From NCBI GenBank assembly GCA_009377495.1, contig WHTZ01000006.1:77211-141210 (forward strand): a stretch of 64,000 bases of DNA, read 5' to 3'. The notes beneath the pieces were generated by a model. The model made no database searches, was not told where the DNA came from, and saw only the letters and a program-made list of their open reading frames with translations. Shown piece by piece: positions 54,128 through 57,353 of this stretch (position 1 is its first letter; each line of letters starts with the position of its first letter). This DNA is from Luteitalea sp. Its GTDB lineage: Bacteria > Acidobacteriota > Vicinamibacteria > Vicinamibacterales > Vicinamibacteraceae. Both the position numbers and the translations under genes were made by a program.

Positions 54128-54217
54128 GGAGGGATGGCCGAGCGGTCGAAGGCGGCGGTCTTGAAAATCGCTGTAGGGGTAACTCTACCGGGGGTTCGAA
54201 TCCCTCTCCCTCCGCCA
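54128..54217 (+). tRNA. tRNA-Ser (anticodon UGA)
   Basis: 90 nt including an encoded CCA. The acceptor stem GGAGGGA pairs with TCCCTCC; the anticodon stem GCGGT/ATCGC encloses the loop CTTGAAA (anticodon TGA). A long variable arm, as in class II tRNAs, lies between the anticodon stem and the T arm (GGGGGTTCGAATCCCTC). Confidence 0.96.
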
Positions 54218-54298
54218 CCCTCCGCTCGCCTTCGGCGAGCTTCGGGTAGCCGGAGCGACTCGGTTTCCAGCCCTCCGCGGCTCGCGCCGCTCCGGGCG

Positions 54299-54324
54299 CG
54301 AATCCCTCTCCCTCCGCCACCCTC
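54299..54324. repeat. duplicate of the tRNA-Ser 3' end
   Basis: 26 bp (CGAATCCCTCTCCCTCCGCC then ACCCTC) identical to 54197-54222, the T-arm/acceptor 3' end of the tRNA plus 5 bp beyond CCA. The two copies are 102 bp apart. Duplicated tRNA ends of this type are left by integrative elements (attL/attR) or by tRNA-gene decay. No integrase is present. Confidence 0.8.
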
Positions 54325-54460: not shown

Positions 54461-54937
54461 TCAGGCCCCGCGTTCGAGATCGCGGAACTGTCGTCTGAGG
54501 TCGTACTCGCTCGAAGTAACGGCGCGCTCCATCTGTGCGATCCGCTCGTCGAGCGCACGGAAGCGATGCTTCAGGGCGGAGACCGTCGCGGCCGGGCGCG
54601 CGGAAAACGTTCGCCAGAAGCGTTCTTCGTCGGCGGACTGATACACCGGATCGTCGTTGCGCGCCGGCTTCATCACAATCGCCAGCACGCCGTACGCGAT
54701 GAGCGGCAGCGGAAAGAAGAAGATGGCCGCAAGAATCCAGGCGCAGCGGAGGACGTTGACGTTCCAGTCGAAGTAATCGGCAAGCCCGGCTGAGACTCCG
54801 GCGACCTTGCCGCGCTGTGTGTTGCGGCGAAGGCGGTGGCGGTTCGGACCTGGTCCCGGCTCGCCCGCGTGATACGCGTAGCGGTCGCGGTCGCGATAAT
54901 AGTGGTGATGATGATGGTGATGGCGGCGGTCAGGCAT
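54461..54937 (-). CDS. pspC: PspC-domain membrane protein
   Basis: 158 residues. An unusual His-rich N-terminus (MPDRRHHHHHHHYYRDRDRY) precedes the PspC domain: RNTQRGKVAGVSAGLADYFDWNVNVLR, then a hydrophobic segment (CAWILAAIFFFPLPLIAYGVLAIVM). The C-terminal ~60 residues form a coiled coil (ALDERIAQMERAVTSSEYDLRRQFRDLE). It is the last gene of the psp operon and would sense envelope stress together with PspB. It overlaps pspB by 8 bp. Confidence 0.92.
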   Translation of the reverse strand: MPDRRHHHHHHHYYRDRDRYAYHAGEPGPGPNRHRLRRNTQRGKVAGVSAGLADYFDWNVNVLRCAWILAAIFFFPLPLIAYGVLAIVMKPARNDDPVYQSADEERFWRTFSARPAATVSALKHRFRALDERIAQMERAVTSSEYDLRRQFRDLERGA

Positions 54938-55175
54938 GAGACCGCTCCTTGTAGTCCTCGCGCCAACTCGGAGCTTCTTTGTCCAGAATCGTCTCCAGGG
55001 CCTCGACCCGCCGCTCGAGCCGCTGCGCCGTTTTCCACAGATCGTCGACGAGACGCTCGTCGTCAGCCGAAAACGATCTGGTCTTCCGCCATTCCGTCAC
55101 ATAGTGGAGCAAGATCGACGGTAACACGATGAAGACGATCGCGACGATCGTCACGATAAAGACTCTTTCAGGCAT
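54930..55175 (-). CDS. pspB: phage shock protein B homologue
   Basis: 81 residues. One N-terminal membrane helix (VFIVTIVAIVFIVLPSILLHYV) is followed by a cytoplasmic coiled coil with the PspB-like motif RLERRVEALETILDKEAPSWRE (compare LESILD...PNWR in enteric PspB). It is located between pspA and pspC as in enterobacteria. Confidence 0.9.
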   Translation of the reverse strand: MPERVFIVTIVAIVFIVLPSILLHYVTEWRKTRSFSADDERLVDDLWKTAQRLERRVEALETILDKEAPSWREDYKERSHA

Positions 55176-55205: not shown

Positions 55206-55880
55206 TTACGGATTGCTTGCGCGCGAGGCGACGCGCTTCTTCAACGCTTCGAACTCCGCGTTCACCTCGTCCTCGGCGGCGAGCTCTCTGAACTCTTCCT
55301 CCAGCGATTTCGGCCGGCCGAGCACGTAACTTTCTGCTTCGGCTTCGAGCTCGTCGATCCGGCGCTCGTAGCGCTCGTAGCGTGCCATCGCCTCGTCGAT
55401 GCGCCCGTCATGGACGTGACGGCTCACCCGCACGCTGTCGAAGGCGGCGCCGTGGCGGATTTCGAGCGAGCGTTGCTTGGCCTTTGCCTCCTTCAGCTTC
55501 GCCTGTAGCTTTTCGAGATCTTCGTTGGCTTTGTCGAGACTCTTGTCGATCGCGTGGAATTCCTTGTCGAAGAGCTCGACCATTTCCTGCGCCTTACGCC
55601 TGGCTGCAATGGCGCCTTTGGCGAGATCGTCGCGGCCCTTGGCAATCGCGAGCTCGGCCTTCGATTCCCACTCGTTCGCGCGGGCGGCAAACTCGGCCTT
55701 CTTGCGCTCCACCTCTTTCTTGTCGGCGATGGCACGCGCCGCGCGGCTTCTCACCTCGACAAGGGTGTCCTCCATCTCCTGAATGATGAGGCGCACGATC
55801 TTTTCCGGATCCTCGGCCTTGTCGAGCATCGCGTTGATGTTGGAGTTGATGATGTCGCCTAGTCTGGAAAAAACGCGCAT
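55206..55880 (-). CDS. pspA: phage shock protein A (PspA/IM30 family)
   Basis: 224 residues from the ATG at 55880 (MRVFSRLGDIINSNINAMLDKAEDP), the normal PspA beginning with an amphipathic membrane-binding helix. The rest is a long coiled coil (IIQEMEDTLVEVRSRAARAIADKKEVERK ... LEKLQAKLKEAKAKQRSLEIRH, cores shown by EMEDTLVEVRS and QRSLEIRH). It protects the inner membrane and inhibits PspF. It is 11 bp after the small gene at 55892. Confidence 0.95.
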   Translation of the reverse strand: MRVFSRLGDIINSNINAMLDKAEDPEKIVRLIIQEMEDTLVEVRSRAARAIADKKEVERKKAEFAARANEWESKAELAIAKGRDDLAKGAIAARRKAQEMVELFDKEFHAIDKSLDKANEDLEKLQAKLKEAKAKQRSLEIRHGAAFDSVRVSRHVHDGRIDEAMARYERYERRIDELEAEAESYVLGRPKSLEEEFRELAAEDEVNAEFEALKKRVASRASNP

Positions 55881-55891
55881 GGTCGTTCCCC

Positions 55892-56029
55892 CTAGAAGAT
55901 AACGCCGCCAAGGACGAAGCCAATCAGGAAAGCGCCCCACGCGAAGCCCTCGCGGCTGCGGCAGGCGCGGCGAAAGCGGCTCTCCCAGTCAGAGTCGCGG
56001 TCGTCGTAGTGGTAACGGTAGTAGCTCAT
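55892..56029 (-). CDS. 45-residue membrane protein at the head of the psp operon
   Basis: Too short for normal ORF thresholds. The ATG at 56029 follows AAGGAG with 7-nt spacing (another ATG lies two codons upstream). The protein begins MSYYRYHYDDRDSDWES, has a basic stretch RFRRACRSREG and ends in a hydrophobic segment FAWGAFLIGFVLGGVIF. It is the first gene after the candidate sigma-54 promoter and 11 bp before pspA. I recognise no family; it may be a small membrane component of the stress response. Confidence 0.75.
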   Translation of the reverse strand: MSYYRYHYDDRDSDWESRFRRACRSREGFAWGAFLIGFVLGGVIF

Positions 56030-56079
56030 GTTCATGCTCCTTGGTTTTGCGCCCTGCAGCGTTGGTCAACCCCGTCCCT

Positions 56080-56095
56080 TGCGAGAGCCGTTCCA
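56080..56095 (-). promoter_or_regulatory. candidate sigma-54 promoter of the psp operon
   Basis: Minus strand TGGAACGGCTCTCGCA: TGGAAC, 5 bp, TCGCA, compared with the consensus TGGCAC-N5-TTGCA. The invariant GG and GC are at the correct spacing. Transcription would start near 56068, about 40 nt before the first psp gene. A sigma-54 activator gene (pspF) is divergent next door, supporting this assignment. Confidence 0.65.
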
Positions 56096-56231
56096 GTTTG
56101 GAGCTGTTCTTATAAGGTGTTGATTTTACTTACGTTTATCTCCACAGCCTGGTTCCACGTGCCAATCGCAAAGGGTATCTCACACCTATCTAGAGGTATG
56201 TATCACCGTTTCCGATTGGTATGATTAGCCT

Positions 56232-57353
56232 ATGGATCGTCTGCGCACGCCGCCGGAACTCGTGGGGCAGGCTCCCGCCTTTCTCGACGCGCTCGCCCAC
56301 GCGTCGACCGCGGCGGGTCTCAACCGACCGCTCCTCATCACAGGCGAGCGCGGCTCCGGCAAGGAGCTCCTGGCCGAGCGGATCCACTTCCTCTCGCCGC
56401 GCTGGGACGGCCCCTTGGTCAAGGTCAACTGCGCGGCGCTGAGTGAAGACCTCCTCGAAAGCGAGCTCTTCGGCCATGAGGCGGGCGCCTTCACTGGGGC
56501 CGCGCGGCGCCATCATGGGCGGTTCGAGCGGGCGGAAGGCGGCACGCTCTTTCTCGATGAAATCGCCTCGGCGAGCGTGCGCGTGCAGGAGAAGCTTCTG
56601 CGGGTGATCGAATACGGCGAGTACGAACGGGTCGGCGGCGAGGCAACGGTCGCCGCGGATGTGCGCGTCGTCGCCGCGACGAATGTCGATCTGCCCGCTC
56701 GCGCCGCCACCGGGCTCTTCCGCGCCGATCTGCTGGACCGCCTCGCCTTCGACGTCATCGTCGCGCCGCCCCTGCGCGCCCGCAAGGAGGACATTCCTCT
56801 CCTTGCCGCGCACTTCGCTGCGGCTCTCGCGCAGGAGCTCGTCGAAGACAAGCCCGACGTGCTGTTTGAAGGTTATACACCGACCGCGATGGCGACGCTT
56901 CACACCTACGACTGGCCCGGCAATGTCCGTGAGCTGAAGAACGCCGCCGAACGCTCCTTCTATCGCTGGATTGCCGCTGACCGGACCGGACCCATCGACG
57001 AGGTCGTCATCGACGCTTTCGATCCGGCGTATCGTCCTGCGGCGACCGTCGACATGGGTGTCCCGCCGCCGGCAGCAACGCCTGAACCGCCGCCGCCGTT
57101 CACGAGCCCGTCAGGCGGCCCCTTTGATCTCCGCGCGCGCCTTGATGAAGTTGAAAGAGAATGGGTGAGGCGGGCGCTGGCGGCGAACGGCGAGAGCCAA
57201 AAGCGCACCGCGGAATACCTTGCGCTCACCTACGACCAGATTCGTGGACTGGTCCGCAAACATCGCCTTCACCCGCGCCAGCGATCCACACGAGAACCTT
57301 TGAGAATCCGAAACTTGACCGAGAACACGACAAGTCGTCGAGGTTCCCATTGA
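56232..57353 (+). CDS. pspF: PspF-like sigma-54 activator
   Basis: 373 residues without a receiver domain, as in PspF. The AAA+ domain starts almost at once (LVGQAPAFLDAL) with Walker A ITGERGSGKELLAERIH, the sigma-54 contact loop GAFTGA, Walker B GTLFLDEIAS and YDWPGNVRELKNAAERS. A Pro-rich linker (near residues 275-300) leads to a Fis-type helix-turn-helix (NGESQKRTAEYLALTYDQIRGLVRKHRL; core QKRTAEYLALTYDQ). It is divergent from the psp operon and should activate its sigma-54 promoter when released by PspA. Confidence 0.92.
   Translation: MDRLRTPPELVGQAPAFLDALAHASTAAGLNRPLLITGERGSGKELLAERIHFLSPRWDGPLVKVNCAALSEDLLESELFGHEAGAFTGAARRHHGRFERAEGGTLFLDEIASASVRVQEKLLRVIEYGEYERVGGEATVAADVRVVAATNVDLPARAATGLFRADLLDRLAFDVIVAPPLRARKEDIPLLAAHFAAALAQELVEDKPDVLFEGYTPTAMATLHTYDWPGNVRELKNAAERSFYRWIAADRTGPIDEVVIDAFDPAYRPAATVDMGVPPPAATPEPPPPFTSPSGGPFDLRARLDEVEREWVRRALAANGESQKRTAEYLALTYDQIRGLVRKHRLHPRQRSTREPLRIRNLTENTTSRRGSH

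Follow-up and report, generated by a model that had tools for sequence, protein, structure and literature searches.

An undescribed small membrane protein encoded ahead of pspA in many alphaproteobacterial psp operons

The window analysed here, a stretch of 64,000 nucleotides from a Luteitalea species, contains a complete psp locus in which a short gene is the first cistron of a divergent pspF / small gene-pspA-pspB-pspC arrangement. The small gene (55892..56029, minus strand) encodes a 45-aa protein, MSYYRYHYDDRDSDWESRFRRACRSREGFAWGAFLIGFVLGGVIF, with one C-terminal membrane helix. It is followed on the same strand by pspA (55206..55880; 224 aa; PF04012, 1.6e-39), pspB (54930..55175; 81 aa; PF06667, 1.3e-22) and pspC (54461..54937; 158 aa; PF04024, 1.3e-15), the last of which overlaps the end of pspB. 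The gene for the sigma-54 activator PspF (56232..57353; PF00158, 1.1e-58) lies divergently on the plus strand. The pspA-pspB-pspC order, the divergent pspF and a sigma-54 promoter in the intergenic region mark a PspF-regulated psp operon and are shared with the canonical pspF-pspABC(DE) operon of the E. coli type. The window locus differs from the latter in having a small membrane-protein gene before pspA, with the promoter placed for that gene; pspD and pspE are absent after pspC in the window.

The sigma-54 (-24/-12) promoter, TGGAACGGCTCTCGCA (56080..56095, minus strand), is the single match to the pattern TGGMACGNNNNTYGCA in the 64 kb, where 0.06 would be expected by chance, and it aligns with TGGCACG-N4-TTCGCA-like elements of Parvularculaceae. 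Its -24 element starts 66 nt 5' of the small-gene ATG. Candidate PspF-binding enhancer sites are seen in two inverted repeats of the form ACC-N8..10-GGT, at 56184-56197 and 56205-56220, as judged from direct reading and from partly conserved columns of the intergenic alignment. At the other end of the small gene, an SD-like AGGGGGA for pspA overlaps the stop codon TAG, and 11 nt separate the stop from the pspA ATG.

The minus-strand frame spans 47 aa from its first ATG (55892-56035) or 45 aa from its second (55892-56029). The shorter form is favoured because a ribosome-binding site, AAGGAG (56037..56042, minus strand), can be read directly 7 nt 5' of the second ATG, and because this ATG alone is kept in frame in a sister species (genome G001, locus L033), where the first is out of frame. 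The sister species shares the promoter and the operon, and its small protein is 89% identical to the window copy. The reading frame is under strong purifying selection: dN and dS are 0.058 and 0.485 between the window and the sister copy, and 0.051 and 0.824 between the window and an alphaproteobacterial copy (locus L042), giving dN/dS of about 0.06-0.12. Changes at the three codon positions number 37/19/85 over six sister pairs (third-position excess, p ~2e-11). When the same changes are placed at random, a stop codon is expected in 57% (L033) and 43% (L042) of trials, and amino-acid changes as few as those seen occur in <0.1%. Conservation in the intergenic alignment falls on the small ORF and the promoter, together with some short stretches close to pspF. 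That the small gene is a real, conserved member of the psp operon is practically certain. An earlier note on this DNA had described a short membrane-protein gene upstream of pspA, preceded by a sigma-54 promoter and an excellent ribosome-binding site, and all three features hold up in the present analysis, the gene by its intact frame, its purifying selection and its retention in the sister species.

Loci from other bacteria were gathered with pspA as bait, and 44 besides those of the window and the sister species carry the small gene upstream of pspA. The window gene belongs to this family (alignment A3) by sequence similarity and by its location between pspF and pspA. On a PspA tree, the small gene is present in 13/13 rows of the window's clade and in 44/44 rows of the wider clade. 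In a set of 80 named pspA loci, a related small gene precedes pspA at every locus of the clade of Parvularculaceae, Hyphomonadaceae and Robiginitomaculaceae, and those of Kiloniellaceae and Azospirillum also carry it; other alphaproteobacterial members of the set include one locus without the gene (L061) and one with an unrelated-looking small gene instead (L070). It is missing at all 34 gammaproteobacterial loci of the same set (Vibrionaceae, Idiomarinaceae, Shewanella, Rhodanobacteraceae and others), and a PspA search of viral contigs found no relatives.

Linkage to PspB was assessed across the family-level group of Amphiplicatus (the Parvularculaceae group), with 60 genomes. The small gene occurs in 38 of these and PspB scores above the cut-off in 37, all within the 38 (Fisher p ~1e-15, a value uncorrected for phylogeny); in G807 the small gene is accompanied by a PspB that is only weak and partial, and G797 lacks the small gene but shows a weak PspB-like match. 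The small gene and pspB lie on the same strand in 38/38 cases, separated by 717-1148 bp, roughly the length of pspA. The frame is thus kept in relatives with the same operon, and there is good support for the "new small component" of the earlier note, both as a member of the operon and as a conserved protein.

Profile searches extend this distribution. Seven loci outside the profile-building set score 22-57 bits, against 6.1 for the best of 850 shuffled sequences. A class-wide search of 337 genomes, in which 20 candidates per genome were scored, gives at least 10 matches, and 40 of 60 genomes from the order of Azospirillum have a profile match. Inspection covered 26 profile-match loci, a few of which coincide with named loci; pspA lies just 3' and a divergent pspF 5' at 25/25 alphaproteobacterial ones. 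The one match among 185 genomes of Gammaproteobacteria (L182) is spurious, sitting within a 667-aa frame with pspA absent nearby. In an unselected sample of 35 alphaproteobacterial PspB loci, picked irrespective of the small gene, about 10 carry the family, the seven loci scored above among them, about 17 show only a short gap between pspF and pspA with no family gene, and the remainder contain small ORFs of other kinds that go unrecognised by the profile. The small gene is therefore common in Alphaproteobacteria but not universal.

Promoter placement follows the presence of the gene. In loci that have both the family and a clear sigma-54 site, the distance from the start of the -24 element to the small-gene ATG is usually 58-82 nt, with 45 nt in Azospirillum. 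Loci without the family mostly have the site 50-71 nt upstream of pspA, and Photobacterium L074 has it at 136 nt. Since the site is positioned for the small gene in the first case and for pspA in the second, the small gene holds first place in the transcript. The gap from the small gene to pspA is 9-14 nt in most Parvularculaceae loci and reaches 98 nt elsewhere. In the Litorimonas/Hellea/Algimonas branch, the small gene is retained, no good sigma-54 site was found and PspF is diverged (34-44% identity). At loci L053, L055-L057, L060, L062-L067, L069, L077, L080 and L092, a diverged PspF-like gene (where in the fetched DNA) is combined with the lack of a good sigma-54 site before either the small gene or pspA, which suggests altered regulation.

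PspB is found in the window's genus and in 0/58 other relatives' genomes searched, with weak matches elsewhere in the phylum. The nearest PspA proteins, at 70-84% identity, belong to Parvularculaceae and their relatives, and in a quick tree the window PspA nests inside their clade on a starred branch. Patchy presence, nearest relatives and tree position together indicate that the psp operon, small gene included, entered this genus by horizontal transfer. The donor was probably a Parvularculaceae-like alphaproteobacterium, a direction that rests on the tree and the patchy presence. Contamination can be dismissed as the source of the operon because serS, a neighbour of pspC at about 0.4 kb on this contig, shows the identities of a native gene (85% to the sister species, 66-73% within the order), and because the sister species also has the operon. 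The apparent acquisition from Alphaproteobacteria, where the small gene is common, could not be seen by the earlier note from the window's letters. A tRNA-Ser(tga) gene (54128-54217) adjoins pspC, and a 31-nt copy of its 3' end, 94% identical, lies 102 bp further on (54294-54324), possibly a trace of integration at the tRNA gene.

The small protein is an undescribed membrane protein heading many alphaproteobacterial psp operons. Searches with 45 members gave no meaningful match to any Pfam or NCBIfam model, those for PspD and PspG included, and Pfam gave no LiaI/LiaF-type membrane domain match. PspD and PspG also belong to the PspF regulon and are likewise small and membrane-associated; the window protein differs from them in its position and in the lack of an NCBIfam/Pfam match. 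PDB sequences include no convincing relative, the matches, mostly PsaJ and mannose-permease helices, being weak (E 0.018 or worse) and read as chance. Relation to PspB (hhalign probability 0.2%) and to PspC (2.3%) was rejected, each comparison resting on a shallow two-sequence profile on the PspB or PspC side. Term searches of two broad Psp surveys (PMC11237479, PMC9239133) turned up no such gene, and literature searches, with most subscription papers outside their scope, gave no description of it. It appears that domain-based surveys have missed short genes before pspA.

AlphaFold2 predicts two helices with modest confidence (residues 10-24 and 28-44; mean pLDDT 67.5). The first is weakly amphipathic beyond chance, 5.7% of shuffles scoring as high. 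The membrane helix has a conserved W-x2-F-x2-G core, with W31, F34 and G37 invariant in a 45-sequence alignment, and small-x3-small spacing in 46/46 members; the N-terminus is variable across the family and often Tyr/acidic. On the N-side of the membrane helix the median net charge is +3, and the C-terminal tail has at most one residue and is uncharged, a distribution that, by the positive-inside rule, suggests an N-in, C-out, C-terminally anchored protein.

Psp serves as a model system for the control of membrane stress, but little is known of its small components outside Gammaproteobacteria, and there is continuing debate over how PspA reaches damaged membranes and is retained there; the small protein offers a concrete and easily tested partner. 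The explanation tentatively preferred here, at somewhat short of even confidence, is that it is a membrane partner that anchors or recruits PspA in the manner of LiaI. Envelope stress would release PspF, and the small protein would be made with, and just ahead of, PspA. It would have a variable cytoplasmic N-terminus, then a short helix of positive charge, and a single membrane helix at the C-terminus; embedded in the inner membrane, it would help recruit PspA oligomers to it or hold them there, as LiaI does for LiaH. Translation under stress, topology, PspA binding and anchoring are predictions of this model. PMC9239133 describes LiaI, encoded together with LiaH in the liaIH operon of Bacillus subtilis, as the LiaH membrane anchor, and the likeness is that a stress-induced operon encodes a small membrane protein alongside a PspA homologue. 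The Lia system differs in its regulator, LiaRS, and LiaI is of a different size with no sequence relation found to the small protein, so that the analogy is functional only. Several further points count against anchoring. PspA has its own N-terminal membrane-binding helix, with PspB and PspC as additional membrane partners. Many alphaproteobacterial psp operons, like the gammaproteobacterial ones, are without the small gene, which is therefore dispensable for PspA function in general, and in some Robiginitomaculaceae the gene persists although no sigma-54 site can be recognised.

Less likely is a regulatory role, in which the small-x3-small helix would pack against PspB or PspC and tune the release of PspF from PspA, with feedback arising because the small protein is the operon's first product. 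The universal small-x3-small spacing is weak evidence for this role, as the pattern is common in membrane helices; the presence of the small gene in 37/37 Parvularculaceae-group genomes with clear PspB and its first place in the transcript also fit. Against it stand the many pspFABC operons that do without the gene, and nothing favours PspB or PspC over PspA as the partner. An independent membrane effector resembling PspG, stabilising the bilayer or the proton-motive force without touching PspA, is improbable: in the genomes checked the small gene is always beside pspA, unlike E. coli pspG, which is located away from the psp operon. A short, strongly hydrophobic product of a stress operon would nevertheless suit such a function, and PspG, which serves the E. 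coli Psp response as an effector in the inner membrane (PMC2763126), provides the precedent. The overlap of the small-gene stop with the pspA ribosome-binding site, and the short gap to pspA in most Parvularculaceae loci, would accord with a leader cistron that is translationally coupled to pspA and in this way determines its expression, the peptide as such being of little importance. Selection at the amino-acid level, a motif conserved across distant lineages and the far longer gaps elsewhere make this very unlikely. A chance frame or annotation artefact, suggested by the shortness of the ORF and the lack of database-family matches, has next to no probability, being ruled out by coding selection and opposed by the profile matches at independent loci and the co-occurrence with PspB.

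Membrane anchoring of PspA, if correct, has a wider and slightly more tentative form: the undescribed Psp protein widespread in Alphaproteobacteria may be a dedicated PspA membrane receptor, a LiaI-like solution reached separately in the PspF/PspBC system, and several unrelated small membrane proteins may share the first slot. The slot before pspA is indeed filled by small genes of more than one kind: in Sphingomonas-type psp operons (L160, L165, L168, L176:3323-3469) the first gene is also small but of another type, and hydrophobic or signal-peptide-like. A Sphingomonas plasmid record likewise has a different small ORF there, annotated as a hypothetical protein. Oleisolibacter-type operons (L142, L143, L070) have yet another small first gene (MTDFTF...VPVEAWIILAVATGLSNLFIALA), undetected by the profile. 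The Sphingomonas-type and Oleisolibacter-type pspF-pspA intergenic genes resemble the window gene in position, shortness and hydrophobicity; they differ in being missed by the profile, and are either unrelated or too diverged. In Robiginitomaculaceae, a second conserved ORF, some 50 aa long (MTFRTIDID...ARSRRRSA...RIAGFGF) and with no Pfam match for the two examples searched, lies upstream of the small gene at loci L053, L056, L057, L060, L063-L067, L069, L080 and L092.
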